This document shows positions 6,491 through 52,600 of a stretch of 64,000 nt of DNA, piece by piece. The notes beneath the pieces were generated by a model. The model had not been told where the DNA came from, did not search any database, and saw nothing but the letters and a program-made list of their open reading frames with translations. A program made the position numbers and the translations under genes. The stretch's first letter is position 1, and each line of letters opens with the position of its first letter. This stretch comes from Halichondria panicea (Eukaryota; Porifera; Demospongiae; Suberitida; Halichondriidae), in the NCBI RefSeq assembly GCF_963675165.1, contig NC_087387.1, positions 2,221,501 through 2,285,500 on the forward strand, given 5' to 3'.

Positions 6491-8596
<2,106 letters not shown>

Positions 8597-13700: not shown

Positions 13701-16700
13701 ATAATTGTTATATCAACAGAGGAACTCAAACAATTTGGGGACAATATACAAAGCATGTAATTGAAGTTATACAGGAGAAAGAATTGTACCTAAGCCTATT
13801 TCCTTGTCATAAAAAAGTACACTAATTTTGTCACGGGACTACTGCATATTACACTGAATATATACACACCAGTAGATCTACCAGCCACACATACATATAC
13901 CCAGGGCTTACTTTCTATGCATGCAGGTTCTGTGGCTGTCCAATTTCCAGTGTCACATATCCTATAGCTAGTGGCATTTCCATCCAGCCTGAATCCATCG
14001 TCACAAGTGTATGTTGCAACAGTTCCATTCGGTCTAGTGGCATTAAACAGACTTTCCATCATATCATATTCCAAGACACCGTTGTCAATTGGAGGCAGGT
14101 CACGGCAAAAGGCTACAATAATGAACAAAACCTTGAGTTTTAATTTGAATTCAAAAATCAAACTAGGTAAAAGCCAAGTACCAGAGATTTGCTTGGTAGA
14201 AAATAGAGGCTATATATGTAACAGTGTCCCACATATAGCCTCGAAATAATTAAGGCCTATATAGACGACTGTAACCTGCCCGGAAATATTTGATTATTAT
14301 ACTTTTACTAGGCCAGTGCGAATATAACAATTCTAGGTTTATAATAATGTAAATAATGCAGCAATGAACCATACCTATACATGTCGGCATTGTACCCAAC
14401 CATTCACTGTTGTTACATGTCCTGTTTTCATCTCCAGAGAGAGTGTATCCTTGATTACAGGTGTGAGTGGCAACAGTACCATACGGCCTCAGAGGGTAAC
14501 CATCAAAACTATAGGAGATGTTTCCATTGGACAACGGGGGAAGATGATCACACTGACCTGCGTACATTCAACATCAGCAACATAAATTATAACAGTAGTC
14601 TAAGAACGTTTCAAATAATAATCTAAACTCTAAAATCAACACTTTTTGGGGACCGTCTAAGAACCCAGAAGTGTTCTACACTTGACCTGCATGCATACGT
14701 ATGTAGGTTACTTGAACATCAATTAAAAGTGGAACCAATGTGGATTGGGACCTAGGGTTGATTTCTATGTATAAGTACCATCAACTGCATGGGTATATAT
14801 AAACACATATTCTTTGAACTGCAACAGCAATCATTAGACGTAAATCATACAATCGACAAACTATAGAAAGGGGCTTAATTTTCGCCGTTTTCGTGGGTTG
14901 GCAATCCTACACGGAAATTAAGTCCAGGAAATTGTTCTTTAATTAGCTATAACGTGCAAAGATTAAAGGCATGGCTTCCGGTAAGCTGTCTCCCACGAAC
15001 ATTGTGCAACGAAATGCTTTTAGAGGCCATTCCACGAAATATAAGTGCATGCGCATGCCTCAAAAATTTCGCACTATACGGTATATAGTGATTGTAGGGA
15101 CACATTAATGATAATTAAGCGTGACAGCTGTATACGTACGTACCTTGATCGTCTATAATGGTGATGGTGTAACTTTGTCGTGGTAGATAACAGTTTTCAC
15201 TAGCATCACATTCAACAAATATTTCCAATTTTTCAATTGGTTCCGGAATGTCATCATCAATTATGGGCACGATAAATCGATTAACGGGAGCTGAATTACG
15301 GCGTCTCCATCTCATGTTACTATTGCCTGATCCTGGGCGTACACCAGTTAAAGTATAGTCCTCTCCTGCATGTGGAAAAAATGTTTGGTGGCTGCCTGAA
15401 TCTACAACATTCATTGTCTTTTAACTAGGATTTAATTGGCATGCACTCCATGTTCACAGTAGAATAAGTTCCTAATGTCTGTGTTTCTATGCATGATGGT
15501 AAATAGAGACCCACAAAAACGTTTGCAATGTGCTATAGGATTGGCTGGGGGAAACACCAAAAAGCGTAGAAACAAGAAAGCGGACTGGGGCAAGAAGAGC
15601 ATACTACACTAATCCGTTACATATCTAAGGCTACATGTATGTATACCTTAATTTCTTGGCTGGTAGTTTTTCTATGCTATTTTTGTGGTTTTCCTGGCTA
15701 ATTGTTCAATCTATGGTCCGACAACCGTGCACCTAACATTAATTTTTGCTGAATCAGCATTTTCATAAAACTTGTCTTTAGAGGTACGTGTTGCACTCTT
15801 CTTAGACTTAGTCCTCTGTCTTGTATTGTTAGGTCTAGTAATAGGAGCTAACTCTCTCAACAACATCTGTAAAGGCAAGTTTTATTAAATGCTGATTCAG
15901 CAAATCGGACCTCCTCTGGGGTTCTTATTCTATTGGAGTGGTGCCGTCATTAATTAGGAAAGACGGTAGCCTACGTATTTATTGCTCACCCTACATTATT
16001 TTACCTTCTGTTGCAGACAAATTTCTAGTAACAGCAAAAGCTCTTGTTACTGTTGAACGGTCCCCTCTTGTTATCAAGAACTCCATATCCACTTGACCCA
16101 CTGTTTCCAAAACACTCATGTCTTGAGCTTCAATCCAAGCCACTGCAAGAGGAAAAAAGTGAAGTGAAATTAAGGACACATTTTAGGTGGTATAGAACTT
16201 ACGTCCTATTGGTTTCATCGCAAATGGAAGAGGGTAAGCAAATGAAATTTCCTTAGCAAAACCATATGCATACCCCCAGAACGGTACATCACCAGAAAAA
16301 TGTATATCAAATGCATCTACTCCGAAGACTCCAGTAGCTCCCCGCCCACACACCATTGATGCAATACAGTCCACACTACAATCGATGGTAGTGAAACCAT
16401 CAGTTGGTGTGTATGCATCTCCATTGACTAGTAATCCTTGAGTGTTTGGTTCGTAATCACTTTCCCGGAGAGTATAGCTTAAGGACACAGAAGAAGGATC
16501 TGACAGACTTGTGAGACTGTACCGAGTTAGATAGGAATCGACAGGTGGTATGTACACCATCGAGGGACTGATGATTAGATTAGTGAAGTTCAAATTATCG
16601 ACTGAACTTCCAAGGGTGTAGCTCATAACTGTAATCGGACGTGTTGACTGGACGCTGCAAAATGTACGACTGTTATGTGGTGTTCTGCACTCAACGTATT

Positions 16701-19700
16701 GGCCTCGATTTATAACAGCGGTCATAGACCGACCAAAGCCTGATAGGAGGACTCTTCGACCATTACTACTAGCAGAGACTGGCTCACATAGACAGTTCAC
16801 TTGTATAGAGGCTTCATCGCTGACAGTACCGATTCTATATACTTCACCACTTTGTCGAAGATCAAATGGTGCAAGAAAAAACATATTACCGTACGTTGGG
16901 TGTGGTGGAATTTGTTCTACCAGATAATCGCAAGTTCCATCGTTGGTAGGTTTTCCACATTGATGGCCACTGAAAACAGACAAAGGTTTGTCAGATGTAA
17001 TGATAGAGCTGGTTAAATCATTCATATTACTAAGCATCAGAGTGTCGAAGCGATTGAAGTGCACTCCGTATGTCGATTCTACCCGAGTGTTAGTGATAGC
17101 AGGGTTTGGTCTCACCCAGGAGGGATGAAGCTGTCTTTGTGATGTTATCATTTGAATACGTGTGTCATCCTGACATGGTGTGATGAGAAACTGACTCTCA
17201 AAAGTTCCTCCACCGTTTGCATCTGACGAGAATATGAAATATTGGTAATCTTTCGCTGTTGGAAACTCGACACAGTTAATAGCCATGAAGGCATCAGCGG
17301 AGGAGGCCATGTCATTATTACTACTGAGAGCATATACGGTGAGCTCATCATTTGGATTATTTGCAGTTAAAATCAGTCCTTTTTGTCTATCATTTGTAGA
17401 TCCATCATTATCGCCGTCACTCTGTACTGATAAGTCCTGCCGTCCGTTACTCACTCCACCAGCTTGCAATTGAATGACTGTGAAATGCCCCCTCTGTGCT
17501 GTGCCAGTACGAGAGAACAACCCACTGTCAGGTGATACCTCGTTGAATCTAACCAGGCCAGGAAGCCTCGTTTCAATAGTGAAAGCAGACACATCTTGTT
17601 CCGTCGTAATATAAAGTGATATTTTGGACCGTCCAACAGCATTTCTCATAAATGCAAAAGCAAATTTATTGCCTCTGGTTTTAAGAGAATTGGAATCTAT
17701 GGAAATAATGTCATTATGAGAGGTACATACTTTGTGACCTGTAGGAGGTTTGTTATAATGATAAACTTTTTTAGAAAGCTGTTTATGGTCTCACACTTAT
17801 ACATCATCCTGTACTGAGGTGGTGGTACATCGTAACTAGGGTAAATACATAGACACTTACTATACACAGGTGCCTTGCGGGAAGCTCTGATTTAATAAAT
17901 TGTTTATGTTGAATTTTAACGTGAAAGAAATGAAGAAAATCTTACACGATAAGATTGAGACACTTATTAATTTGCACTATCAATTACAGCAAGTACCGGT
18001 ACTTATAGCCAGTCAATCGACAAGCTTATAGCTATATACGTTGTATAGGGGATCATTGTGTAACTTACATCCAAGCTTATAATTCTGTATTATAAGTACA
18101 TACAGTCATATGAAATGTATATAATTATACCATCAAACCACAAATTAAAGCATGTACGGGCGATTTGGAAACAAGTGCATGTAAGTGAAATATAGACACA
18201 ACTATCCACATACCAGGGCTCTGGATTTTATACAGAGGTAATTTATGACCCAGTGGATAAATAAATAATGCAGCAATTAAACCTACCTTTACATGTCGGC
18301 ATTGTTCCCAACCATTCACTGTTGCTACATGTCCTATTTTTATTTCCAAGGAGATAGTATCCTTGGTTACAGGTGTAAGTGGCAACAGTACCATACGGCC
18401 TCAGAGGGTAACTATCAAAACTATAGGAGATGTGTCCATTGGGCAACGGGGGAAGATGATCACACTGACCTGCGTACATTCAAAGGTTAATCACAGTGCA
18501 TGGAACCTCTAAATGGTCACACTTCTGGGAACTATAATTATGGAGATTGATCTTTGTGTCTTGATTTCAGTGGTTAATTTCTACGTGCTTCTATTTTGAT
18601 TGAGTGACCTGATTATAGAAGTGCCTTGTCTACATGCATTTAGTTACATTGAACATAAATCACTAATATGCATACAGTGCATGGACAAACTAATGAATGT
18701 GGGCACACACAACATAAGATGATGAGCATGACAGTGACGTACGTACCTTGATCGTCTATAATGATGATGGTGTAAATTTGTCGTGGTAGATAACAGTTTC
18801 TATTGTCCTCACATTCAACAAAAATCTCTAATACTTCGATTGGTTCCGGAATGTCATCATCAATTATGGGCACAATAAATGGAGCAATGGGAGCTGATGT
18901 ATGACGTCCCCATCTCAAGTTACTTTTGCCTGTACCTGGGCGCAAACCAGTTGAATTATAGTCCTCTCCTACAAGACAAAAGAAAATACTGAGTTTAATC
19001 TCTCTACATGCAATACATTAGTGAACACATGCATGCACTTTGTAATCTAAAGCTCTTGGACTGAGTATCATTTTAGAGCATGGACCCTGCGAAAAATTTC
19101 TCCAACATGTACATGAATAAAAAGAACCTGCCAATACCTTCCGTTGCAGACAAATCACTAGTGACAGCGAAAGCTCTTGTCCTCACTGAATTGTAACCTC
19201 CTGTTATCATAAACCCCATATCCACTAGACCTACATTTTCCATAACAGTCTTGTTTTGGGCTTCAATCCAGGCCACTGGAGAAAAGGAGTGAAGTAAATA
19301 AGGGACACATTACTTTTGTGTGTATAACTTACGCCCTATCGGTATCATCTCAAATGGTAGAGGATAAGCAAATGAAACATCCTCAGCAGAACCGTATGCA
19401 AACCCCCAGAATGGTATATCACCAGAAAATCGTATATTAAAGTTTCTTTGACCTAAAAATTTAGTAGCTCCTAGCCCTCCTAGCCCACATAGCACTTTTC
19501 CAATGCAATCGATTAAACCCTCAGATGGTGTGAATACATCTCCGTTGACAAGCAATTCTGGAGAGTTTACATCGAAATCACTTCGCCTGAGAGTATAGCT
19601 TAAGGACACAGAAAATGGATCTGACAGACTTGTGAGACTGTACCGAGTGAGATAGGAATCGACAGGTGGTATATACACCATTGAGGGATCGCCGATTGGA

Positions 19701-22700
19701 TTTGTGAAGTCCAAATTATCGACTGAACTTCCGAGGGTGTAGCTCATAACTGTAATCGGACGTGTTGACTGGATGCTGCAAAATGTACGACTGTTATCTG
19801 GTGTTTTGCACTCAACGTATTGGCCTCGATTTATAACAGCGGTCATAGACTGACCAAAGCCTGATAGGAGAACTCTTTGACCATTACTACTAGCAGAGAC
19901 TGGCTCACATAGACAGTTCACTTGTATAGAGGCTTCATTGCTGACAGTACCAATTCGATATACCTCACCACTTCGTCGAACATTAAATGGTGCAAGAAGA
20001 AACATATCACCGTACGTTGGGTGTGGTGGAATTTGTTCTACCAGGTAACTGCAAGTTCCATTATTAATAGGAGTTCCACATTGATGGCCACTGAAAACAG
20101 ACAGTGGCTTGTCAGATGTAACGATAGTGCCAGTCAAATCATCAACATTGCTAAGCATCAGAGTATTAAAACGATTTAAATGTAGTCCGTATGTCAATTC
20201 TTCTTGAGAGCGAGTGATAGTGGAGTTTAGGCTCACCCAGGAGGGATGAAGCTGTGTTTGTGATGTTATCACTTGAATACGTGTGTCATCCTGACAGGGT
20301 GTGATAAGAAACTGGCTCTCAAAAGGTCCTCCACCAGACGAGAATACAAAATATTGATAATTGGGTGCTGTTGGAAACTCGACACAGTTAATGGCCATGA
20401 AGGCATCAGCGGAGGAGGCTATGTCATTATTACTGCTGAGAGCATATACGGTGAGCTCATCACTTGGATTATCTGCAGTTATAATCAGTCCTTTTTGTCT
20501 ATCACTTGTATCATTATCGCCGTCACTCTGTACTGATAAGTCTGGTCGTCCGTTACTCACTCCACCAGCTTGTAATTGAATGACTGTGAAATGCCCCCTC
20601 CGTGCTGTGCCAGTACGAGAGAACAATTCATTGTCCGGTGTTACCTCGTTGAATCCAATCAGGTTAGGAAGCCTCGTTTCAATAGTGAAAATAGACACAT
20701 CTTGTTCCGTCGTAATATATAGTGTTATTTTGGACCGTCCAACAACATTTCTCATAAATGCAAGAGCAAATTTATTGCCTCTGGTTTTAGGAGAACTGGA
20801 ATCTGTAGAAATAGATTTCATCACATGAGAGGTACATACTTTGTGACTTCGTGATTTGTACGTTACTTTTTATGCATGGTCGTGATCCCCCTCTGTAACA
20901 GCTAGGTGATATCTTAATTATCGATCTAAATACAGTGGAACCTCCATAAACGGACACCATTGGGGAACAGCCATTTGGCCGTTATAGAGAGGTGGTCTTC
21001 CTTGGGAGATTCCGATTGCCAGCTATTTATGGTCTATGAGTCATTTCTTGCTGCAAATGAATCTTGGAGCTTTGCTAACTGCTCTTTAGCTCATACAAGC
21101 TTTGAAAAGGCTGTAGAGACAAGCTACAGCTAGGTTTTCACGATTGTGCAAAATAATGCTATCTCAGCAATAATTTCTGAGTGTGGCTGTCCGTTCTGGG
21201 AGGTTATTTTCCATTGCTAAAGCTGGTTGGGGACTAGAAAGCTACTCGTTATATGGAGTAGAGAGGTGGTCGCTCCTGAGAGGTTGCTTTACATTGTAGT
21301 TTCAATCCGGACCTGAGCTCTTGGCTGTTATATAGCGTGTGGTTGCTCTTTGGAGGTGGTTGTTAATGGAGGTTCCACTGTACCACCCCATGTCAAACAT
21401 CCTATAATATTATACCCTGGCCTGCATGTATCAATGTCCACAGAAACTAGAACTATAAGTTCTCACTTGGAGTGACCGGCCTAAGTGCACCACAATCTAT
21501 ACCGTATAGTGGGTAATTTTTGTGGATTCGTTAATTTAAATAGCTGATTTTCGTGAGTAAAAATTTCGTTTGCTTTATTACGTGCACTGTAGTGCATGCG
21601 TTGTTAACCACGCCTATGTTTTCATGTGGCAGTAAACTAATGACGTGACAAAAGTATAGGATATACCACACCTAAGAGGAGGATATGTACCCATATATCC
21701 TCCGCTACTGTGGTTACTCCGAGGCGTAGCCGAGGGGTATGTAACCATGGTAGTGGAGGATATATGGGGTGCATATCCTTCGAGTAGGTGTGGCATATCT
21801 GACTTATACCACGTGACCGCAGCACTATAAAAGGACCTCCCCCTAGCAACAATTCAATCCACGATGCAGACTGCAAAAAGAACAAGGCTGTGTGCCGGAT
21901 TTTGCAGCCGTCAAAGAGCTAGTTGAGCAACGTGTTGACTCCTACAGATGCTCAAGAGCTTCGATCACTGGTCCAAGTGTTGACCATTCGACGTCCCTTA
22001 CTGGAGTTGCAAGCTCTTCTTGGATAAAATGCACGAAGCTTAGCCATCTTGTTGGGAGCAGCTTCCGTATTTCTGCCGTCACTTTGAGTCTTAGTACCGT
22101 TAAGCATGGCTCTTTTCTCTTTGCTTACTTTCTTGACAAATTAAAAAACAACTTGAAAACTGTGCATGCCTGGGGCTGCATAATATTTTTCTATATATCT
22201 TACAGCTGTTAACCAATGAAATCAATTAGTGGTGACGTAAGTGTGGTATAACTATAGCTTGCAAGCGCTCAGTTATGTGTTTCATGCATTGCCACTATCA
22301 ATATTATCATGCATGCAGCAAGTACTGGTAATTGTATAGTCATTCAGTCGACAAGCTTATATAATTATAGGTATATACAGTGTAGGAGATCTAATTTCTA
22401 AGTGTGGAACTTTGCATACATGTACTTGTATATACGACAATTGTACGTATACATGTACAGTGTACTGAAAAATGTAACCAAGTATAATAATTATAATAAA
22501 TACATACCATTAAGCCACAAAATAAGTTTGAAAACATGTGAATGTGTTTGAAAGAAAGCAGCGACTGCTAGGAAATGTTCGTCGATAAATTTTGCACTTG
22601 TTAGAAGTGAAATAGGCATGACTATCCACATACCAGGGCTCTGGATATGACAGACCTAATGGTCTCAATTGGAGTATTATATTGACCCAGTGGATAACAT

Positions 22701-25700
22701 TTTAAATAAATAATGCAGCAATTAAACCTACCTTTACATGTCGGCATTGTTCCCAACCATTCACTGTTGTTACACGTCCTATTTTTATTTCCAAGGAGAT
22801 AGTATCCTTGATTACAGGTGTAAGTGGCAACAGTACCATACGGCCTCAGAGGGTAACCATCAAAACTATAGGAGATGTTTCCATTGGACAACGGGAGAAG
22901 ATGATGACACTGACCTGCGTACATTCAAAGGTTAATCAGCAGCATTATACAATTCGATGGAACCATAATCATCTCTAAGTACAATCAACTATCTCTACAT
23001 CAGCACCTTTGGGACCTATGGAAAGCATCCTCTATACATTTAGGTTTCCTGAAGTTCTACTGGAGTGTCTTGATTATAAGAGGTGTCCTAATTTCACTAA
23101 TTTTAGGGGTACCACTGAACATCAATCATAGACTACTATGTATAATCATAATTATACAGTCGACAAGCTAATGAATGGCAGAACTATACAAAAACTGCAA
23201 ACCGTGCAGATAAGAACCTCACTATATATAGAGCTGTAGTAAGTTTTTTGTAAATACTGTTGCTATTTACGAATTGGGGAAAAAGTGTACAAACAAGTGC
23301 AAAAAAATATTAATTTTTGTGAAATGGCTCGAGTACCAAAAATAGACTAAGTATTGGTTATTTTATAGTTATAGTTATAGTTGAGATTGCATGGTTTGAG
23401 TGATATAGGATACAGTTTTACGTACCTTGATCGTCTACAATGGTGATGGTGTATCGTTGTCGTGGTAAATAACAGTTTTCGTTAGCCTCACATTCAACAA
23501 AAATCTCTAATACTTCAACTGGTTCCGGAATGTCATCATCAATTATGGACACAATAAACTGATTATTGGGAGTTGAATTTCCAGCTCTCCATTCCAATTT
23601 ACTACTATTGCCCAGTGTACCTGGAAGTAAACCAGTGGAACCATAGTCCTTTCCTAGAAGAAAAATGATAACAGTAACCACCCTACACGTTTTATTACGC
23701 TCGGGAGACTACAGTCCCTTTGGGCTTTTAAATCCCATACGGACACAACTCACATATAAATTATAGTGTCTAGATATACTACAGATTTAGTGTGAATGTG
23801 CAAGCCTTGCCCTCGAGGCTACTAACTACCGTATAGCGGGTAATTTTCGTGGGGTAAAAAATTCGTTTAACTCGAAAACGGTGATTTTCGTGAGTAAAAA
23901 TTTCGTTTAGTCTCATTGCCTCCACTGCATTAAAATTTCGTGGAGGTCAGCTTGCCCACGAAAATAACGAATTTTTTACCCCACAAAATTACCCGCTATA
24001 CGGTATACAATACAACAAGTTTATTGTACTTGGCAACAGGCTATTCGTTAATTCCATGCTAAAATACCTCCTCAGAGCCATGTATAATAATTATAAGATC
24101 TTCAACTATGTAGTAAGTAATATTTAACAGTACATTGTATTAACACAGAATAATCCTCTTACCTTCTATTGCAGTAATATTTCTAGTGACAACGAAAGCT
24201 CTTGTTCTCAGTGAAGTATCTCCATTTGTTACTCTGAACCCCATATTTACTAGACCCACAGTTTCCATAACGATCATATCTTGAGCTTCAATCCAGGCCA
24301 CTAAAACATTCAAAGAAGTTATTACGGACACGTTTATACGATATAGCTAAAACTTACGTCCTGTTGGTATCATCTCAAACGGTAGAGGGTAAGCATATGA
24401 ATTGTTCGTAGCAAAACCATTTACAAAACCCCAGAATGGTACGTCTCCAGAAAACTTTATATCATGATTTTTTGGGCTTAAGAATCCTGTAGCTCCCTGA
24501 CCGCACGACATCGATCCAAAGCCCTCATTGCAATTGATGGTAGTGAAACCATTAGTCGGTGGGAGTACATCTCCATTGCCAATCAATCCCTCTGTGTTGG
24601 GTTCGTAATAATCTCTTTCCTGGAAAGCATAGCTTAAGAAAGCAAAACGAGAATCTGACAGATTTGTGAGACTGTACCGAGTCAAATAGGAATCAACAGG
24701 TGGTATATAAACCATAGAGAAATACTTGAAAAGTTTATTATAGTTCATTACTGTAACTGGACGCGATGACTGAACGCTGCAAAAGCCTTGGGCCTGTGAT
24801 CTACATTCAATATATTGGCCTTGATTTATAGTAGCAGTGAAAGAGCTACCAGATCCTGAAAGGAGCACTCTATTACTACTCGCAGAGACTGGCTCACAGA
24901 GACAGTTAACCTCAACAGAGGTTTCATTGCTGACAGAGCCTATTTGAAACATTAAAGATATTGATGCAAGAAAGAATAAATCACCGTAAGTTGGATGAGG
25001 TGGAATTTGTTCTACAAGATAACTACTGTCTATTAGAGCGCCACTGAAAACAGATAACGGCTTGTCAGATGTAATGATAGTGCCCGTCAAATCATCCAAA
25101 TTGCTAAGCAACAGAGTATCAAAGCGATTGAAACGCAGTTCGTACAAGGCTTCACCCCGTGGATAAGTTGTATTAACACTTGGACTCACCCAAGAGGAAT
25201 GATGATGCACTTGTGAAGGTCTCACTCGAATAGTTGTCTCATCTTGACAGGGTGTGATGAGAAACTGACTCAGAAAATCACCTCTGCCAGTTACATCTGA
25301 TGAGAACACGAAATATTGGTAATCTCTTGTCGTTGGAAACTCGACACAGTTAATAGCCATGAAGGCATCAGCGGAGGAGGCCATATTATTATTACTGCTG
25401 ATAGCATATATTGTGAGCTCATCACCTGGATTATCTGCAGTTAAAATCAGTCCCTTTTGTCTATCACTTTCATCAATATTGCCATCAGTTAGTACAAATA
25501 TGCCTGGCTGCTCGTTAACTTCTCCAAAAACAACTTGCAATTCAACAACAGTGAACTCCCCCCTTCGAGCTGTCCCAGGACGAGAGTACAGTCCAGATGA
25601 CGTTTCGCTGAATCCATTTAGGCCTGAAAACTTCGTTTCGATAATGAAATTAGACACCCTTTGTTCAGTCGTAATATATAGCAGTATTTCAGCTCGTTTA

Positions 25701-28700
25701 ATACTATTTCCCATAAACGCAAGAGCAAATTTACTACCTCTGGTCTTAAGGACATTTGAATCTGTAAAAAAGAAATAACATAATGAATGTTGCAAGCTGC
25801 GCTGTGCTAATGCCTCTCAGCATATCTTGCTTTGCTTAAAAAGTATGGAGTGTTACAGAAGAGGTAATTGTTATGTTCCGAAATAATTATATGGAATTCC
25901 ATATTAATCTCAAGAGTGTTATAATTATAGAAATGGAAACAGATATAATGAAAGCACCGCAGGTGCTGATGCCTCGGTGGAGATGCCAAAGCTACATAAC
26001 ATAAAGCTACTATAATAGCTTAATTTTATACACATGATGAACATTTTTTATTTGCATGCTGCATGCAAACTCGAAGAGTGGGTAATGATCGACCATGATT
26101 GTTGTTAAAAACGATCGATGCCAAAGTTCAAGTCTAAAATTAATAACTGCCATCAGCAGAGCCTTGCAGCTTTCTTCTCACTCTTGCAGCTACCAATAGC
26201 TAGCGTTCTAGTGCAGAGCTAACTACTAAGTAGAGTAGCAACACTCGGTAAACAAGTTTGGCTACGTGCTCTTCTGAAAAGGCTGCATTGGCATTCCAAG
26301 TAAGCAAAACTAGGCATAACTCGAGAACGAAGCATTATTTTGAAAATCCACGAATTAAAATCCAAGAAAACATGACTAGAAGAAGCCTATAGAAACTCTT
26401 ACTTGCACTTCATTGATCTTTGAGCAGCTGTAGCAGTCTACCACACAGACAGACACACACACAAACACACTACCGTACACCTCGCTTGTGCATGCGCACC
26501 GAGGCATAATTATGGTGGGGCTTGATGAATGTTCAAGGATAGAAGCATATAGATCTAAAGTTTTAAGGAGTATTTTGCGTGCAGAAAAAGGGGTGTATCT
26601 GCAATAGGTTAAAGTTCGCAATTTCTTGTTTCCACGCTTTTTTGTGTTTCCCCTGGCCAATCTTAGCAACCGTTTTACGTTTTTTATCCAGATTCCCTTT
26701 CTTTTTTCAGAACAGAAGTAGTACGTTTCAATAATGAATACATAAGTCGAACATCAAGAAGCAGTACAAGTTAAATATGAGAAGACATGCAGGACTGGAA
26801 TAAACGCATATATACCGTCTTTCTTCTAACTACAGGACCACTTTAATAGTAGAACCAACTGTCAGTTGTGTTCTATTTATGAACCATTTCTAGGTGTTTA
26901 GCTAATTATATAGGCTTGAAACCCATCACCCTTCTTTTGGTGGACAGCCCACACCCATAAGGTCTAATAATAAATCGAAACAAAGTGTACATTTACTGGA
27001 TTTTACATAATTACCTGTCCAGTAGTAGATTAGCTAAATGTCAGACTCAGCTATAGATCTACTTACTGACTTTACTTTTTATACTCGAGACATAGTTTAT
27101 CATTCTCGAAATAACAGCCATGCAATTACAAATTGCCAGCTATTACCGTATAGCGGGTGATTTTTGGGGGGCTAAATATTCGTGGTTGGCAATATTTATC
27201 GTGATTGCTGCACTGCAGGTAAAGGTAGGCAAGGTCGGTTCATTTGTGGGTAAAATATTCGTGGTAAGACCTTCAACCCCGAAAACCACGAATCTTTTGC
27301 CCCAGGCTAAAATTAATTACCCTCTATACGGTATTATTCCCCGCATTACTCCTCAGTTTAAACCTTAAGTACACCCCAGAGTTATCAATCAACGGTACAT
27401 GCATGGTGCTGTTTGGAATGAGGGATGACATTATCTTAATTAAGTTTGTTACAGAGTATGTATCAATTAACAGTGTGCATGAAGCAATAATGGGGTACAT
27501 GAATGGTACTGATTGGAAGAGGGATGAAACAAACTTAACTATTAATGGATATAGTTTCTTCTCAAATTCCTGCAATCTATAAGCACCACTCTATATATGC
27601 TGTGTGTTCTTCGGGGCATGTCAGTTGGTTACTGTCTTTGAATTATGCACGCAACATTCATTAATGTTGCGTGCACGTACAATTTGAATTATTAATTAAG
27701 AGAGGTGAATGGAAAAGGATAATAGGAGAATTCTATGGGAATCAGAGAATAGAATAACAGGAAATGTCTTGAGCATAATCTATAAAGGCCTAACAGTCTG
27801 GGAATGCACTGGATCAGACTGCTGCTTGAAAAAGATGCTTAAAGTTCAAAGTTTATAATTAATGGCTGCTCTGTGCAGCTTAATTTGCAGCTCTTTCCTC
27901 ACTCCTAATCTAACAGATTTTGCTATGCACGTGTTTGAAGAACCTGCAATAGCCATTAATAACTTGAGAACGAAGTAAATCCACCAACGAATAAAATGTA
28001 GCTAAAAGCCTATAATTATCCCTTTACCGGTCAATCGTTTAATTCGGGAAAAGGGTCATCACTTTAGTTTGAATTTGAATTTGTGGGTCAGCCCAACCCA
28101 CCAACTTAGCTTGATTTGATCATTCCAATGAAGACTTGGCTTAGAAGTAGTCTCGAATTCCAGCCTCTTTGCAAGCTAATTTGGGGAGGGCGTGGCCAGA
28201 CTAGCTTAGAAGATGGGCGTGGGTCAATGGTTGTGCACACACACACACACTAACCAGTCGATTATGCCTTGCTGCTTGCCTCGATGGAAGTATGTGTGGC
28301 CTTTAAAAGCTGTAGCTGGTCTAAACCTTCAATTTGACTGGTAAAGGGACACAGTAGGACACACAAAAGCCTGGAGAAAGTAATATTAAACTTGGCATAT
28401 TTAAAGGTGGTGTAGATGGAAGCAGTAGCCAACAGACAATGGCTAAACAGGAGAATAAGCAGTTAAGAACACCTGAAAAAAAAAGAGTACAATGCTTCCA
28501 GAGCCATCCAGTTTCAAGTGTCTAGCAGCTCAGCAAAACTAGTACTTCAAAGCTCTCACAATCTACCACACAATCCAATATCAACATTGATCAATATTGA
28601 CAAGTGAATAGCATGCTCCTTTGTTGTTGTAATATTTACAACAATTTGACCGGTAAAGGGATATAGAGCTCTTATCTGCACTTCAATTGTAACTGTCGAG

Positions 28701-41600: not shown

Positions 41601-42554
41601 CGCTGTCCGTGGAGCGACATGACATGTACTGTATATAGCTAGGTACTTAACTACGTATAAAGCATTTGATCCTACACCACCTTGGCAGTGGTTTGCTATA
41701 CCCTGCCATTGTTGAGTTTGCCATACTCTGTTGCTATTTGTTGAGTTTGCCATACTCATACTCTTATCTGTTTGAGTCCATGCAGCGACATGATCATTAT
41801 AGGTATTGTCTATACAGGTATACGAATAAAGCATCTATATGCACGTACATAGGCTTACTCTGTTGCTATGTTGATTTTGCCATACTCTGTTGCTACTTGT
41901 TGAGTTTGCCATACTCTCCATGCAGCGACATGATATAATTTATTAATTTATTGTCTATAGCTACACTGTCTATAGCTACACTGAGCATGAGGTACGTATA
42001 AGGCATGGTTAGCGACTATATGTATTGATCCTACACCACCTTGGCAGTCAATTGTGCCCCTGATTTTTCACATTCATATTAGAATGGAGAGGGGTTATCG
42101 ACGCGCCAGCTGCGGTGGTGTCTAAGTAACTTTTGGCTAAAGGCTTAGGTGTTCTGTACCTGCCAACTGAGGGGGGGGGGTCCATGGCCGATGACCGGGC
42201 ACTAATCGGTAGAGAGAATTGGTAGACAGAAGATGAATGAATGAATGAATGATGGACGTCTGATATGCTCACAAAGTGACTGCTAATAGTTCTGAGACTG
42301 CCACGAGGCTTCAACTTTAGTGCACATGCGTTGAGATGAGTGACGTCATTGCGGCCTGCTCCTTGTTGTTAACCCCATTTAATATGCTATTAAATTCCAT
42401 TTATAGACTACATCGCCGCATGCGCACCGAGGCATAACAAGTGCTCTGCTTGTGGGAGTGGCTAGGCATTGTAAGGGAAGCCAACACAATTACGTGACTG
42501 GTTTTCACTGCGTGTGTTTGATAGCACTCTAGTCTAGCTATATAGCTGAAAGAA

Positions 42555-45500
42555 ATGATGCAGTATGGTGCTCTTTCAGAAGGAGATATATGTGTGAGGA
42601 GGACTATTGACGAGAACCCTGTGGCCAAAGGGCTGGCCATTGTAGTAGCTAGTCAGGAGAGCCGAGCCTTTCCCAATGCTATTCTCGAAGGAGTCACGAT
42701 TGATTTTCAGAATACCTGCTCAGCTTTTAGATTATTAAGATATGCTGTACTGCCATTGCTGAATGCCACTGAAAAGATGATTACAGATGTTGTCCAAGCT
42801 GTCCCGAAATGCTTTCCCATATGTGGTGATAACGATCCTCGATACAAGCGAATTGTATTTTATTTTGCTGGGCATGGAGACAATAATGTTCAAGTTCATA
42901 CACATGATGGAGAAATTAATGTAGATCGAAAAATTATTTGGCCTCTCTTGCCAGAAAACTGTCCAAATTTGAGGCACATACCGAAATTGTTTTTCATTGA
43001 TGCGTGTCGTGGTGAAGGTACAGATATAGCCATACCTAGAGGAGGGGGTAATATCTTTTCTCGTGTGTCAGGTATGGCTAACTACCTTGTCGTGCGGTCC
43101 ACTTTGCCGACTATGAAAGCATTCGAGCAAAGCAATCGTCGTGGAGGTTTTTGGACTCAGGCGTTTGTAGAGCAGCTTATTAGCCCAACCAATAAAGGAA
43201 GGGATATTGGGTACATTCTCATTGAGATAAACCGTCAGGTGAATAGGTTATTCAACTCCCAAAATGTTCTGTGCACTCAACAAGCGATTACTGAGAGCAC
43301 ACTCCTTGATCACGTCTTCTTCCTGGATGAAGCTCAGGAGCTTGAAGGTACAGAATAATTGGAGCTTTGGTGATCACAGTTCAATCCATTGTGCATTGTA
43401 TTTCAGAACTGGCAAGTACAGCATACACTTGGAGCAGTTGTCAGCCTGGTTTGCCTGGTAAGTGTATGTTACTGCATGTGTCAGTGCATGAGCACACATA
43501 TTTACGTGATCGTATACAGTGTATTAATAGAATTAACCTGGTTTGTTTCATACCAGTAGGTTCGCATTCAGCTGGCTCCATTCCTGGTGCATTCCCACCT
43601 CCAGCATTTTACAGAGGTATATTATAGAGGCAAATCCTTTTAATGAGTTATATAGTTATTGACAAGAATGGATCGTAGGCCGGTATCTGGAGATTAATTA
43701 ATTAAGCTAGTGCATGTTTTAATTTCCCCAATACAGGTCTATTTGGGTCTACAGCCTCAGAACTGCCTACGTCCTTCTCTCTACCAGCAAGAGTTATACC
43801 GAGTGCTGCAGCAGTAGCGAGTGGAACCTCTGAAATAGTGAATCCTTTGGTACTAGTATCAGACCCAGTGTCCCAGTCTGATGCTATAGAAGATGTCATG
43901 TCACAATTACAGGAAGGTACGTATACTGAAGTTATTCTTTCCCTCTACCCAAAGTAGACTAAGCTCATACACATTCATGCCCAATCAATTTATAAACATG
44001 CTGCCTCAATTCTGCATGGATTACTATAATAGTTTTAGCAGACACAAAATAATTATACTGGCACACAACAGACTACTATAGCCTGTGGCCGCCTATTATG
44101 TGGCTTGGGTTAATAGAGCTATTGGTACAAGTAAAGTGCTGTAGGTACCGTGTATGCTTGATCAGGAGCCGCGGCTACTAACTGTTTCATTTTACTGGAA
44201 GAGGAGGCTACAATTCGAGAGAGGCCACTGTTCAAGAGCGACGTTTATTAGCTCTAGTTTGTCATCAAAAGTTATTTTCACCTGCAAAAACTTGAACTCT
44301 GCATGCCATGAGAAAGTCTTTGTGAAACACTAACAAGCAGTATCTAGTATAGTACATGTAGCTAGCTGCTAGTGTTAATAATAACTTTTTCTGGCTGCCA
44401 CGTGCAAAAATGCTAGAGTCAAAGTTCACTGAAGCTACTATTTGAGAGCGGCTACTAAATGGTTCATTTTGCTAGCAAAGGAGGCTACTATATGAGAGCG
44501 GCCTCTGATCGAGCGTATACGGTACTTTAATTACCCTGTGCGGGCATTGCGCGCAGCAGGGGTAGAGTGATTGGTGTGTGGACACAAATATGAGCTGTTT
44601 GAGCAAAATATACACTTTTATGGATTGCTGTATATAACTGCTAATGTGGCAGTGGTTGAAAAATAATAGGCTACTTATAGTAGGAACTTGTAGGCGATCT
44701 TCAAAGGCGACAAAAAACACTGTGTTCTAATCGTTGCTTTATGATTCACGATAATTTCCCATAATGAAGTCATTACAGTAAAACGTTATCGTATCCGTTT
44801 TGCCGCTGTGCGATGAAGCTCAACGCACAAGGTGAATGCTCTATTAGTATATCTTGTTTCTGGACCAATTGCCTCGAGGCGTCGCCGCGCACGAAGGGTA
44901 CGGTAAAGCTGACTGTGTGTGTGTGTGTGTATTCCAGCTGTAACTGCTCAACGGTTGTAATGCAGCGAAAACTAACCGCTTCTATAGGCTTCTAGCCACG
45001 TTCTCATGGATTTTATTCGTGGATAAGCGCTAGCTTTTTGTTAGGTACAAGAGTCAGAAAAGAGCTGTACTGCCAGAGTGCAGCAGCCGTTGCGAACGTT
45101 AGCGGATACGCCCCTTTTTCTGCACATGCACATTCAATCTCACGTGTGTGAGATCCTGACACGTGAGATCCTGAAACAAAATACAATTCTTTTCGTGGGG
45201 TTCTGGTAAGCCACGAAACACGTACTACAATTCTTGTTACCATGTAGATACACAACTCTTTCTTAAACCCCTTTCTCATTGACAGGAAATCAGGGTGTCA
45301 TACAGGATTTTGAAGTAGAGGGGGGAAATAAGAAAAGTAACCAGAAAATTTTGCTAAAAAAAGGTCAACTGTTATTTCATAGTATGTAAAATTGCCAGCT
45401 ATGGACCCTCAGTCAGCAAAAAAGGGGGGGGAAATTGGAGATAGGGGGGGGATATCCCCCCTTTCCCCCCTGTATTACACCCTGGAAATGTGAACTTTTA

Positions 45501-47604
45501 CATTGTAAATCTACATGTTCCTATGTTTCCATTAATTAAGCTCCTCTCCTATATATAAAGACTGTGTGGTGTGAACAAATTGCAATCAACAATAATAACG
45601 TAACATATACAAAGCAACCTCTTCTATAGCACTCCTAATAGTTTTTGAGCGAAAGAAAAACATGGCGAGAGCCATTACTCACCGCAATAGCACAGTGAAT
45701 TTGAGAATCGATGTATACAAGTCTAGCCTCATTCCCGGCCCTCTTTTCTCTAATAGGTTAAAAAGAGGGCCTGGTACCAATAGTGCGCATGCGCTTCAAA
45801 TTACCCAGAATATGCATGTGGAATCGTACTATGACCGTAAAACCTTAGTAAATGAATGCACCGCAGGTGCTGATGCCTCAGTAGAGGTGCCAAAGCTACA
45901 TAATATATAAAGATGAATTTGACGAACATGTTTTGCAATTTTGCTGCATGCAGGAACCACAGGGAACTCAGAGAGTGGGTAATGATTGTTGTTAAAAACG
46001 GTCGATGCCAAAATTTCAAGCCTAAGATTAATCCGGGCTGCATCAGTAGAGCCTTGTGGCTCTCTCTCTTAAGCTCACTGTTGCAGCTACCAATAGCTAG
46101 CGTTCTAGTGCAGAGCTAACTACTAACTAGAGTAGCAACACTCCATGGACAAGTTTTGCTACGCACTCTTCTGAAAAGGCTGCAATGGCATTCCAAGTAA
46201 GCAAAACTAGGCGTAACTCGAGAACGAAGCATTATTTTGCAAATCCAAGTAAACATGACTAGAAGCCTATAGAAACTCTTGCTTGCACTTGATTGATCCT
46301 TGAGCAGCTGTAGCAGTCTACACACACACGCATGCACACTCATGCACACACGCACACACTACCGTGTACCTCGCTTACGCATGCACACCGAGGCATAATT
46401 ATACGGTAGACTAGTCCGTTTACTAACAATATGTTCCATAATACTTTATGTTCATGACTGAGCTGTGAAGCTGTGGCTTAAACCATCTATTGCGTTGGTC
46501 TAGAAGGCTTGAACACTAGTCTGAGACAGAAGAGGCTCTCATCTACGTCTACGATGGTCCCATAGCCGGGTTGTCTGTCTTCGTAAGTAGCAGTTAGGAA
46601 GCACTATACACTTCCTGTAGCCTGTACAGATCCAAGCTACCTGACTACACAGCCATCACAGAGGTAGATGAAAGCCTTCTAGAACAATGCAATAGAAAGC
46701 TAAACTGCTTTACATAGATAGAAAAATAGATTAAAGAAAGAGAAAGGGGATTGAGTAAATTAACGCATGTGCACTATCGCACATGTAATAGGTACATAGG
46801 CCGTGTTATTTCCCCTTCCTGCATGTCTAGCTATTAGAAAAAAATCGGGACCGAGGCTAATACAAGTCTTACGTGTATAGTGCTGATAAGCTAGGAAAGT
46901 CTTGTGCTGTCATGTGTGCCAAATAAGATTAGTAGTTATTTTACATCTATACTGCCCCTCCTCCCTCCCTCCCCCGGCCATATAGTATGGCCACCCTGTT
47001 CTTTACACTGGGGAAAACGCTGATCTTAACAACTCTCTAATATAAATTTGTAACATATCGTATAGGCCCTGATCAGGAATTGGAAATATCTCCATTTGAA
47101 AATTATCCTCGAAGTACAACAATACCCGGTCATTATAAACAGAAAGTTAACCGTTTCTTCCAAGAGAACGGTATTAACCCCACATATGAATATCTATATG
47201 GCAGTGAAACTGGTCCCACTCAATACCGATGCACCGTACGCTACACAATATGCGGAGAATCCAAAGAAGTCGATAGTGTACATTACTACTTGAGCAAAGG
47301 AGATGCTAAAGAACAAGTTGCTAAGCTGGTACTTGAGAGAGAAAATGTTGCACCAATAGTCAGTAAAGGAATCAGTCCACCTTCCAACAAGATATGGAAG
47401 TCTAAACTGAAGGAATATTGTGACAAGAACAAGGTTGTCCTCCCTTCTTATTGCACCGTTCCAACTGAAAATGGGTTCAAATCGACGTTCACGTTGTTTG
47501 GTCAAGATATTAAAGGAAAAGAGTGTAAGAGCAAACAAGAAGCTGAACAGAATGTGGCCCACCAAGCATGGCTGAGTCTTGAACATAATAATGAGTACAC
47601 GTAA
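42555..47604 (+). CDS. Caspase-family protease with two C-terminal dsRNA-binding domains
   Basis: Five exons: 42555-43347, 43407-43457, 43557-43616, 43737-43916, 47066-47604. Every junction is phase 1 with GT..AG, total 1,623 nt, 540 aa. Exon 1 is a C14 caspase domain: the p20 part has KGLAIVVASQ, the catalytic His (H107) in VFYFAGHGD and Cys (C151) in KLFFIDACRGE. The p10 part has VVRSTLP, GGFWTQAFVEQL, a Q..N-type strand and LLDHVFF. Exons 2-4 are a Ser/Pro/Ala-rich linker. Exon 5 has dsRBD 1 (residues about 382-455, NPTYEY..GPTQYRCTV, SKGDAKEQVAKL) and dsRBD 2 (about 470-535, LPSYCT, SKQEAEQNVAHQAW). Exon 5 has no ATG and must be spliced. The ATG follows an in-frame TAG and has no prodomain; a TATAG acceptor at about 42546 allows an upstream exon. 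Family knowledge: caspases drive cell death and dsRBDs bind dsRNA. Inference: a dsRNA-activated caspase. Confidence 0.78.
45291..45484. mobile_element. hAT-like MITE, 5-bp target duplication GAAAT
   Basis: CAGGGTGTCATACAGG at the left, CCTGTATTACACCCTG at the right (one mismatch); GAAAT directly on both sides. The interior has G-runs and C-runs that could fold together. Confidence 0.9.
45873..46396. mobile_element. CACCGAGGCAT-family repeat, full copy
   Basis: ATGCCTCAGTAGAGG at the left, ACACCGAGGCAT at the right. Closely similar throughout to 25969-26507. Confidence 0.8.
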
Positions 47605-48548: not shown

Positions 48549-49690
48549 CACGCACACTAGCTTGCGCATGCGCACAAGCGTGCGTGTGTGTGTGATACCG
48601 AGGCAATAATTATGATTCTGAGCAATATTAAACATTACAAACGACCTCTACCATAATTCCGAGCTAGGCGAGGTTATGTTTGGGTCTAGCCTCATTCCCG
48701 GCCCGACTTTTCTCGACTTGAACGATACTATCATAATAGCCTCGATCCCAGGCGCTTTAGTGAAAAGTGTGTATCAAGACTCTCGCGACTGCATCAGAGA
48801 AATATTTCAGGCTATCTATCTAACACAAGGCATCACCATGCACCTCATGCAATTATGGGCTTTTAAACTTGTGATAATAATAAATTAAACTAACCTCAAG
48901 GTTTGTTTATTATTGTACAAAAGAGCAAGTGCCCTCTATAATGTTTGAAACCTTGATTATCCAGCTTGACAATTTTTAGGGGTGTGTCCCTTAAATGCGC
49001 ATGTGCATTGCAGCTGTTACCATGGAGACAGGCCTGCTCATCTTCTGTGCATGCGCAGACAACCATGTGGGACTGCTATTTATCAATTAAGTGGGTGGAT
49101 CAAGGCGTGATTTATCTATTCGATTATCCATTGTCTGGCCTGCCACTGGAACCAAGGTGTCCGGATGATCGAAGTTCTACTGTATATATATAGACACAAC
49201 AAAAATAATTGTTAATCAATTATGTGTCACGTACTCTAGTAATCAATTATATATTGCCGGAATCCGGGCAAGATCAACTGGTTACCTGAGGCGCGTGTGG
49301 GCAGGCGGCCACGGGTATAGTATAGCCGGTTGGTTTGTCTGTCTGTTTGAGCCTGCTCACCTGGATGCCACGCACACCATGTCAATTGATCTCTGAGATC
49401 AAAGTGCCACGATGCACTGTATTGCCTATGAATATCCGTATCAGTAAATTATTGGCGTTTGGCCAGCTTTTGGTAACCACATGCAGCTCATAATTAGATT
49501 AGATTACACATCCCACATAGCTGACGGTACATAATTTAATACCTTTGGGTTCCTTAGTCTAGTTAGCATAAAATTATAGCTGGAGCTAGAGAGTTAAGTA
49601 GTAGTCTACATAGACAGGGTGAAGTTAGCTAGCCTAGACCTGTAGTTTATATAATTTATTGATATTATAGCAGTATAGCTGGTGTACGGT

Positions 49691-52600
49691 ATGGATCAGC
49701 CAAAAGCTAACTTCGTACAAACAAGATTTGAAAAACTTTTGAAACATTATGACATCAACGATTTTACCCGGTTTCTTGCCAAAAAGGAGTTCCTGCCTAG
49801 ATCTACGTATGAACTGAAATTTCTACCCAGTGGTAAATCTGCCCCCAAACAGGAAATCATTAGCTCTCTACTGTCTCATGTGTCTAGTAGAGACCAATTT
49901 GCAAGTGGCCTCTTGGACATTTTTTGTCAGTACACTGAATTTGTCTCAGAAGATGTGGCCTTGACACTTTCTGAAATACCCTCAGCTAGAAAGGTGGCCC
50001 TGACACTTTCTAAAACACCCTCAACTAAGAAGCACTTTTCACACAACAAAAAAGGATCCGATTCTGACTCGTGTTCGTCATCGTCATTCTCTGATGATTC
50101 TGACCCTTGCCAGCCCAGCCAAGAGTGTCCAACTACTGTAAGTCTGACACAACCATGCACAGGACTTCACTATTGTATTGTTAGTAGATCATATATACCT
50201 CAGTGTAAGTATACTAAAGTATATTTGCGTTAAGTTCGGCCCCGGAAGTCATGTGGTCAATTATGGCTTCATTTATGCGCCTTTATGTGGTTGACAAGTA
50301 AGGACTTTTACTAACTTTTAGCTGGTTGAAGGTTATCAGCTCTACAGCATATACCGTAAAGTTAGAAATTTATGCGGCCCAAAAATTCTGTAAATCCTGC
50401 GAATGAATGAGTAAACGCAGAAATATTATCCGCAAATGCCTATTAACCATGCCTACTTTAAAGTTTAATTCGCAGAAATAGTATCCGCAGAATGTCTTTT
50501 TACAGCTAATCACAGAATTTTGGAGGCGCAGAAATGCAGTCTAGCTATACGGTAGATAGAAACAATTTTTAACAAGGAATCCATGACAAAGTTATGACAA
50601 CATTTATATGAAGGTCAATCTCAACAATATACTTTATTTAGTCTAGGTCTCATGGCTATATTATAACCTCTCAAAGTAAATCACATCATACAGTAAAGGG
50701 ATTGGAAACGGAAGCACCCTCAAAGTATCATTTGTGTATCCCTGAATCGAGGCTTACTTTTAACGTGGAAGGCTAACATAAATTTCATGAGAATTGCATG
50801 TTTTACTACCTGTAAAAAGTCCATAAGCAGTTCCGCTGCTAAACATAAATACCTTAATCACCTTATATTTGAGGACACAGCACTAGTTACTTAGTTATAC
50901 GGCTTTCAATAGCTATCCTTATATATACAAGCATGAAGAAGCGCTCTGCGTACCTCTAACTACTTCACAACAAGATTATGATACTCACCATCAAGAGACA
51001 TAACTAGAGCACTAAAGTGCAAACCCTCGGCTGTTGACGTGATAATAAAGAAACCAGAAGAGTGATAATGCAGTGCATGTAGCATGTATGAATAGCAGAG
51101 CACAGCAACTCAAGAGCAATAAAACTAAACTAACAACGTACATGCATGAGACATGCACTATGGACTGGGATCACAGCAAAGAAGCCTGGAGTCTTCTAGA
51201 CTAAGAGAAGTATGGCTCCTTCCAGGCTGGAGTACGTATAGGATCCAGAGTCAGTCAACAACCAGTCACAATTCTACTTTCTTGACAATTGTTCCTGGTA
51301 CGGGATCACTTCAGCTGAAAATACATAATCAAGCCTTGACTACGTATTTTCAGCTGAAGTGATTCCGTACCTTGACTCAAGGCCACGTGGCAAGTTTAAG
51401 CTTCTTAGCTTTTGCTCGCTTTTACTCGACAAAGAAGCTTTAACATCAAAATCTGCCACTATTTAAACCAAGATATTGTTGTGTGAAGACTACCTATGCT
51501 GCAAACGCAGTGCTATGGCATCCAGGTGAGTAGATATACTCGTTACAAACAAACAAACAAACAAACTAGAGCACTAAAGTGCAAACCCTCGGCTGGTGAC
51601 ATGATTATAAAGAAACCAGAAATATAATGCAGTGCATATAGTGATGTTGTTATCATGTATGACTTGCACAGCAACTCAGGAGCAATAAAACTAAACCAGA
51701 CTGGAGGCATGCTGAGAACAGGTAGTGGTAGACTACTATAGATGATATGCACTGTGGATTAGGATCACAGTAAAGAAGCCTGGAGTCTCAGAGAAGTATA
51801 GCTCCAGGTTCTGCATGGAGTAGGATCCCAGTCAGCAGCAGGAGCTATAATTCAAGCTCCTACTTTAGTGACCCTGTTCCATTGTTCCTGGTATATACAG
51901 CTTTCTACTTTAGTGACCCTGTTCCATCGTTCTTGGTACAGGATCACTTCAGTTATAAGTAACGCATGTGCAAGTTCTGTTCCAGCTACATTTTGCTCGC
52001 TTTTATTAGACAAAGGAGCTTTAACACCGAAAGCTGCCACTATCAAAAGTACTAACTTGTTGTGTGGAGGCTACTCATGCTGTAAACGCAGTGCTAGAGC
52101 ATCCAGGTAAGCAGACCTAGTCACAAGCTTATTCAAGCTTCTTAGCTTTTGCTCGACAAAGAAGCTTTAACAGCAAAATCTGCCACTATTTAAATCAAGA
52201 TATTGTTGTGTGAAGGCTATCCATGCTGTAAACGCAGTGCTGTGGCATCCAGGTGAGTAGATATACCTATGACAAACAAACAAACAGACAAACAAACAAA
52301 CCTAGAGCACTAAAGTGCAAACCCTCGGCTGGTACATGGTGACATGATTAAAAAGAAACCAGAAATATAATGCAGTGCATATAGTGATGTTGTTATCATC
52401 ATGTATGACTTGCACAGCAACTCAGGAGCAATAAAACTAAACCAGACTGGAGGCATGCTGAAACATTTGAGAACAGGTAGTGGTACTATAGATATATGCA
52501 CTATGGATTAGGATCACAGTAAAGAAGCCTGGAGTCTCAGAGAAGTATGGCTCCAGGTTCTGCATGGAGTAGGATCCCAGTCAGCAGCAGGAGCTATATT

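Follow-up and report, generated by a model that had tools for sequence, protein, structure and literature searches.

Can a single protein recognise double-stranded RNA (dsRNA) and answer it by proteolysis? This question is raised by a five-exon gene, hereafter gene W, in a 64,000-nucleotide stretch of the Halichondria panicea genome (contig NC_087387.1, here C11:2221501-2285500; hereafter the window), for which a first-pass annotation had proposed a caspase fused to two dsRNA-binding domains (dsRBDs). The explanation that on balance we prefer is that W is one of six members of a family of single-chain proteins in which a caspase fold, its S1 pocket acidic as in MALT1, is followed by a flexible linker and C-terminal dsRBDs; these proteins would be clustered by dsRNA, cleave after Arg or Lys and process themselves.

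One reading frame and its counterparts in the genome

The splice model of W was made by hand from genomic DNA. All five exons named in the first-pass annotation were found with GT/AG borders, and joined they give 1620 nt, that is 539 aa plus stop, with no internal stop, including between exons 4 and 5. The exact frame of 540 codons reported there thus stands with the stop counted as one of them, while the phase 1 it ascribed to five exons belongs to the four introns. An in-frame TAG (42543-42545) lies immediately 5' of the ATG, and the open frame of the terminal exon (47041-47604) contains no Met, in line with the earlier remark that this exon lacks a start codon of its own. A domain search of the spliced protein, proposed at that stage as a check, returned Pfam Peptidase_C14 (1.5e-18, residues 38-248) and dsrm (6.6e-14, two stretches). 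Exons 2-4 each have a length divisible by three and phase-1 borders, so the loss of any one of them would keep the protease and dsRBDs in frame. If intron 4 were left unspliced, the frame would reach a stop at 43957, and a protease-only isoform is possible. Intron 4 is long partly because it holds a dispersed repeat, identified in a whole-intron search in which 40 of 6815 first-look candidates were scored; by inspection, with no gene finder run, no gene was noticed in this intron.

Since splicing cannot be proven from a single genome sequence, we sought replicates in the same genome (131 Mb, 39 contigs), which yielded 33 C14 matches and, at E up to 1, 16 dsrm matches, of which 12 exceed the Pfam cut-off. 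Three of these 12 lie on the same strand and at most 10 kb downstream of a W-kind C14 gene (those of W, of gene A and of gene F, the last located behind A), compared with a distance of 390 kb to the nearest downstream same-strand dsrm above cut-off among 14 canonical caspase loci. On either strand, the above-cut-off dsrm nearest to a canonical caspase is W exon 5 itself, ~31 kb from locus L010. A genome search with exon 5 recovered W together with three strong matches on contig C16, at 71, 68 and 53% identity and belonging to models A, B and F, and a chance-level match (E 4.45), so that four sequences, W, A, B and F, matched at E <1e-20.

Five paralogues, A-E, all modelled by hand on contig C16, were found to share the layout of W, with a protease exon followed on one strand by one or more dsRBD-type 3' exons; the dsRBDs are clear in two of them and weak by profile in three. 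Every intron (20/20) in the seven models (W, A-E and F, the last without a protease exon) is in phase 1. The introns of gene A measure 104, 260, 150 and 108 bp, the 108-bp one preceding its two-dsRBD exon, and DNA similarity between W and A (77%, 528 columns) starts at the acceptor AG of exon 5 (W 47063). Pieces related to the intron-4 repeat also occur in locus L031, around the long intron of gene D. Because five genes of the same genome share its layout, the fusion in W is supported beyond chance, and the open frame together with its recurrence in the paralogues makes it very probable that, as first proposed, protease and dsRBDs are joined in one protein.

Active site, linker motif and phylogenetic position

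Alignments confirmed the positions given earlier for the catalytic dyad, His107 and Cys151, and both residues are invariant in the six dsRBD-type proteases (W, A-E). The best PDB matches of the six-member family profile were caspases (5.8e-33), with the dyad and the p20-p10 layout in place. According to a clan CD review, Asp is bound in the S1 pocket of caspase-7 by Arg87, Gln184 and Arg233, and Asp365, Asp462 and Glu500 are similarly placed in MALT1 (PMC4357240). In W and A-E this Arg/Gln/Arg triad is replaced by Leu/Asp/Glu: Leu and Asp are found in 6/6, and the loop-5 Glu in 6/6 of the six-row alignment (5/6 plus a gap for D in a wider table, where D by eye reads SYE like E). Canonical caspases of this genome carry R/Q/R in 10/11 rows (L013 has R/Q/S), as do 2/2 PDB chains, in a table that omits L009 and L012, whose scores equal those of L008 and L011, as well as the split C3 gene and, among partial or remote C14 matches, L020 and others. 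Asp at Cys-2 and Leu at the first position also occur in four further C14 proteins (L018, L019, L034 and L036), which have S or G at loop 5; thus the Asp/Glu pair is distinctive, whereas Asp at Cys-2 alone is not. Of these, L019 and L018 are located at contig C8:3185023-3185691 and 3219293-3219961, and L034 and L036 on contig C12. A helix-1 Asp is likewise invariant in the six and is uninformative, because canonical caspases share it. NCBIfam gave no match on the W protease. Judged from the S1 residues, W and A-E are likely to cleave after a P1 Arg or Lys.

We further examined the intersubunit linker, by eye, without statistics and in one loose alignment, and found R or K followed by S/G-G 11-15 residues past the catalytic Cys in 6/6: IPR-GGG (W and C), VPR-SGK (A), VPR-SGP (B), SSR-GGK (E) and VPK-SGC (D). 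Caspase-3 is cleaved at its IETD-SG, which lies 12 residues after Cys in the same alignment. A basic residue at about the position of the caspase-3 Asp, combined with an acidic S1 pocket, is what co-evolution of an enzyme with its own cut site would give, and self-processing of the linker after Arg or Lys, in W after Arg162, appears reasonably probable.

In a tree of 25 rows, the canonical caspases (QAC group) formed one group (98/95) from which the six W-type proteases were excluded. MALT1 and L020 p20 paired (100/96) and grouped with L018/L019 (95/88) apart from the six, with both p20 rows partial and branches long. When L013, L034, L036 and the two p20-only rows were removed, a branch (93/94) set the six apart from all other rows, and the canonical group was retained (97/94); these trees are unrooted and compatible with either an ancestral acidic S1 or a reversal. 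A separate MALT1-type p20 exon is present in the genome (L020/L044, contig C16:2528441-2528827; E 1.1e-21 to human MALT1) and, with the canonical caspases, fits an animal genome. The six proteases are therefore placed by these comparisons outside the canonical caspase group and apart from the MALT1 gene of the genome. Two terms of the first-pass annotation had to be given up: 'caspase' in the strict sense does not suit the L/D/E pocket and the position in the tree, and 'death protease' is not a label that can be borrowed from Asp-specific caspases when the predicted cut follows Arg or Lys. On W and the six protease exons, neither Death nor Ig domains exceeded the Pfam cut-off (Ig-type E 0.15 on gene D), and on the six exons only C14 passed. 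Scans for relatives yielded one among 28 pattern matches in prokaryote contigs, an open reading frame (ORF) of a Planctomycetota metagenome-assembled genome (SGHG, DAC; 34% over residues 92-161) with no dsRBD seen by eye, no profile search having been made on it, and none among 53 pattern matches in viral contigs. These near-empty scans give no sign of recent transfer within the collections searched.

The dsRBDs, their exchange and neighbouring sequences

In a six-frame genome search, dsRBD II of W alone exceeded the Pfam dsrm cut-off of 23 bits and dsRBD I alone fell just below it. A four-row exon-5 profile matched the tandem dsRBDs of plant DRB4 (E 5.7e-7), starting midway through dsRBD I and extending to the end of dsRBD II. 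The AF2 model of exon 5 is of low confidence (mean pLDDT 40.5) and gives dsRBD II the order H-E-E-E-H of the a-b-b-b-a fold; a Foldseek search with it returned 521 matches, of which the best 10 comprised eight named dsRBD structures (DRB4, R2D2, DRB2, DRB3, HYL1 and RDE-4) and two chains from the Drosha/DGCR8 and Dicer-1/Loqs complexes, which include dsRBD proteins, none of these 10 reaching E <= 0.001. An NCBIfam RNaseIII score of exon 5 (E 6.9e-6; 25.7 of 166 bits, far below cut-off) presumably stems from the dsRBD. We have hardly any doubt that the dsRBD fold is present in W. The terminal exons of A and F also pass Pfam dsrm (1.3e-14 and 1.8e-16), and that of B, without a dsrm match when searched alone, is 51-53% identical to W dsRBD I. 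Profiles and identities let us confidently predict W, A, B and F to be dsRBD proteins, while C, D and E are probable ones. We also considered whether W exon 4 might be a dsRBD in decay, comparable to the one in gene C, and its local score of 44, matched by 0.3% of 2000 shuffles, was not convincing given its low-complexity composition.

What these domains bind is the point on which the main rival explanation turns. It holds that they are chiefly protein-protein docking modules, as in Dicer partners, and take the protease to Dicer or RNA interference complexes with no direct sensing of dsRNA. The nearest solved dsRBDs by sequence are indeed DRB4, DRB3, DRB2 and HYL1, to which the structure matches add R2D2, RDE-4 and the Dicer-1/Loqs complex. 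Weak Dicer_dimer matches recur, and RNA-contact motifs are by eye partial in exon 5, being incomplete in dsRBD II as well as in the extra exon of A and B. However, dsRBD I keeps the GP and SKGDAK-type positions, which we take to be RNA contacts, and the tandem dsRBD of PKR is also among the weak profile matches (E 0.028). We consider docking without sensing unlikely, although it is the strongest of the alternatives.

The dsRBD exons and the protease exons differ in their divergence. Protease exons are 60% identical in amino acids between W and C, and 33% between W and A with synonymous sites saturated, whereas the terminal exons of W and A share 68% (synonymous divergence, dS, 0.60; nonsynonymous divergence, dN, 0.19; dN/dS ~0.31). 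Conversely, A and B have close protease exons (84%, dS 0.32) and distant terminal exons (51% over 97 codons, dS 1.08). This discordance shows that the gene parts have separate histories and that the dsRBD exon has moved between loci, eased by the symmetric phase-1 exons; the substitution pattern also indicates purifying selection on the terminal exon. At fourfold sites, the W and A terminal exons differ in 2/26 in the dsRBD I half and 7/17 in the dsRBD II half, a pattern expected after recent gene conversion of a tract.

Gene F, immediately 3' of gene A, has the leader exon MLLLLIFFLLLQSGDVEVNPGPTL followed by a death-domain-like exon, then a linker and finally a two-dsRBD exon. All seven PDB matches of the death-domain-like exon at E up to 10 were PIDD or FADD death domains (best E 0.039), and Pfam Death was below cut-off (E 0.067). 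The duplicated stretch with its two-dsRBD exon is 91.8% identical in DNA to that of A. The NPGP motif of the leader resembles a 2A sequence; a literature passage on 2A mentions NPG/P for cardioviruses only. Gene F is a candidate death-domain/dsRBD adaptor, and its place beside A with the same dsRBDs is circumstantial support for a theme of dsRNA-to-death signalling.

Elsewhere in the window, three consecutive minus-strand ORFs of 489-535 aa (16183-25816) each match IgGFc_binding (PF17517, E 9e-26 to 5e-40). In a plus-strand open frame of 560 aa (6914-8596), a part that by eye is B-box/coiled-coil-like precedes stretches similar to histone H4 (Pfam Histone E 1.6e-4, below cut-off), giving the frame the appearance of a TRIM-like one that has captured an H4 copy. 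Two kb downstream of W, a plus-strand ORF of 184 aa (49679-50233) with a Ser/Asp-rich tail gave nothing above the Pfam cut-off and no PDB match.

Table 1. Features of gene W (window positions) and of the related genes on contig C16
Feature	Position	Strand	Description and basis
Exon 1	42555..43347	+	C14 protease domain (p20+p10); starts with ATG, phase-1 end; Pfam PF00656, residues 38-248
Catalytic His107	42873..42875	+	AGHG; alignments
Asp149-Ala-Cys151	42999..43007	+	Catalytic Cys; Asp where caspases carry Gln (S1); alignments, S1 roles from PMC4357240
Arg162	43038..43040	+	IPR-GGG in the intersubunit linker; proposed self-processing site, by eye, function inferred
Glu191	43125..43127	+	KAFE; MALT1 Glu500 equivalent, replaces caspase S1 Arg; alignments, PMC4357240
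Exon 2	43407..43457	+	Linker, symmetric 1-1, 51 nt
Exon 3	43560..43616	+	Linker, symmetric 1-1, 57 nt
Exon 4	43737..43916	+	Linker, symmetric 1-1, 180 nt
Intron 4	43917..47065	+	3149 bp, phase 1
Dispersed high-copy repeat	45851..46402		Within intron 4, ~550 bp; 39 other scored candidates cover most of the stretch at 79-84% identity
Exon 5	47066..47604	+	Terminal exon, two dsRBDs, no Met, TAA stop
dsRBD I	47134..47337	+	GP kept in b1-b2 loop, SKGDAK at helix 2; six-frame genome search 21.8 bits, E 0.03
dsRBD II	47395..47580	+	Higher HMM score, GPxH-type loop missing; six-frame genome search 40.7 bits
Gene A	Contig C16		5 exons, 619 aa; extra dsRBD-like exon and two-dsRBD exon
Gene B	Contig C16		4 exons, 490 aa; extra dsRBD-like exon and one dsRBD
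Gene C	Contig C16		2 exons, 362 aa, 3.25-kb intron
Gene D	Contig C16		3 exons, 565 aa, two dsRBD-like exons
Gene E	Contig C16		4 exons, 421 aa
Gene F	L029 5466-2847, contig C16	-	339-aa model, directly 3' of A; hand-made

Proposed mode of action and known systems

By analogy with PKR-type sensors, from which both dsRNA activation and the biological outcome are guessed, the dsRBDs of W would bind long dsRNA, and copies aligned along one RNA would bring their protease domains to dimerise. The dimer would then cleave its own intersubunit linker after Arg or Lys (IPR162-GGG in W) and become fully active, and cleavage of cellular proteins after Arg or Lys might constitute a defence or death signal. 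We regard triggering of the family by dsRNA as evenly poised, and cell death as its output as a rather doubtful suggestion.

Several observations weigh against the self-processing dsRNA sensor. The exon models are hand-made, and the exon-4 acceptor of gene A, 10 bp upstream of a first choice that gave a stop, was picked for its open frame. The S1 pocket rests on alignment because the AF2 model of the protease exon failed (pLDDT 35); overall the proteases are closest to caspases, with MALT1 absent from the best 60 of the 240 matches that the family profile gave in the PDB, and in the full tree the six, which require one change, form one group with support of 48/94 only. MALT1 needs no cleavage at the equivalent site, as stated in the clan CD review (PMC4357240), and self-processing therefore does not necessarily follow from an acidic S1. 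Some of the typical signature for RNA binding is missing from dsRBD II, and hence some dsRBDs may be protein-protein modules. No Pfam match was obtained for the extra exons of A and B, which are dsRBD-like by eye; the dsRBD-type exons of C, D and E are weak in Pfam (Dicer_dimer E 0.02-0.13 on all four, dsrm 0.2 on one D exon), and PDB searches with D exon 3 and the C exon gave no match. An in-genome dsRBD profile (9 sequences, four being W and A domains and none from C, D or E), run over 1751 ORFs of the sampled loci and the window, gave the C/D/E exons E 0.03-0.85, covering mainly the last helix. These four exons ranked 15-18, right after 14 ORFs from profile-source, other-dsrm or B-exon loci, and the best ORF of a canonical caspase locus ranked 25 (L013, E 5.4), the controls being four such loci with 3.0-5.1 kb downstream and others with 1.5 kb only; with an earlier profile that included a low-complexity row, the C/D/E exons ranked 15, 17, 23 and 25, among background.

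The remaining alternatives fare less well than docking. That the family are regulators without important protease activity, dsRBD scaffolds or decoys, would suit gene D, which has DSCLG in place of DACRG, and MALT1-like proteins also serve as scaffolds; the full conservation of His and Cys makes it improbable. An ordinary Asp-specific caspase with neutral S1 changes, fused to dsRBDs as proposed for oyster, could account for the caspase-like profile matches and p20-p10 layout, but all three Asp-binding residues are replaced, Asp and Glu are invariant in the six, and the linker motif is basic with no Asp, and we hold this to be still less probable. Least credible of all is a protease gene ending after exon 4 beside a separate dsRBD gene, which the length of intron 4 and the stop reached with the donor unused would allow, since exon 5 has no Met, similarity to gene A starts at the acceptor AG, the same exon in A lies only 108 bp behind exon 4, and a dispersed repeat sits within the intron.

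If the self-processing dsRNA sensor is real, dsRNA sensing and proteolytic output would reside in a single chain, bypassing adaptors. The paired change of S1 and linker would be a natural experiment on the gain or loss of caspase Asp specificity, a question usually posed as caspase versus metacaspase or paracaspase, and the mosaic exons would show a route for re-equipping such sensors. Tentatively, this early-branching animal may have evolved a charge-swapped branch of the caspase fold, in which S1 and self-cleavage site changed from Asp to Arg/Lys specificity, serving as one-molecule dsRNA alarms whose dsRBD exons were swapped among protease bodies and with a death-domain neighbour by phase-1 exchange.

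Among known systems, the caspase/dsRBD fusion itself is published for oyster. Two DSRM domains are present in the caspases Cg3C-like A and B, which their authors suggest to be viral pathogen detectors and describe as a fusion not earlier reported for any caspase (PMC7836458); they answer to the mollusc caspase/DSRM combination mentioned in the first-pass annotation. A figure legend elsewhere also lists DSRM as one of the domains combined with caspases (PMC10967218). A study of 160 putative metazoan caspases including Porifera describes dsRNA-induced apoptosis in a cnidarian, and a term count for it gives dsRBD and dsrm 0 times (PMC11251625). Within the titles and abstract beginnings listed from the open-licence literature, we found no sponge caspase/dsRBD protein and did not meet C-terminal dsRBDs on a caspase-like protease, an acidic S1 in such a fusion, the basic linker motif, a multigene family or exon trading.

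The oyster proteins thus resemble W in combining a C14 protease with two dsRBDs, but, as described, their dsRBDs lie in the N-terminal prodomain and their protease groups with caspase-3C (PMC7836458), whereas the dsRBDs of W are C-terminal behind symmetric phase-1 exons, with a stop just before its ATG, and its protease has an acidic S1 outside the canonical group; this comparison is by published description. Type 1 paracaspases such as MALT1 share the acidic S1, with Asp149 and Glu191 of W corresponding to Asp462 and Glu500 (an Asp365 equivalent is also listed), but the six do not group with MALT1, have no accessory domain above cut-off and carry the basic linker motif. The executioners caspase-3/-7 are similar in overall domain profile, ACRG context (5/6) and position of the linker motif, and differ in S1 (R/Q/R against L/D/E) and in a linker Asp where the six have R or K. 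PKR and other dsRBD-enzyme fusions offer a parallel by analogy, in that a tandem dsRBD is joined to an enzyme possibly switched on by crowding on RNA; PKR is a kinase, whereas W would couple its C-terminal dsRBDs to a protease.

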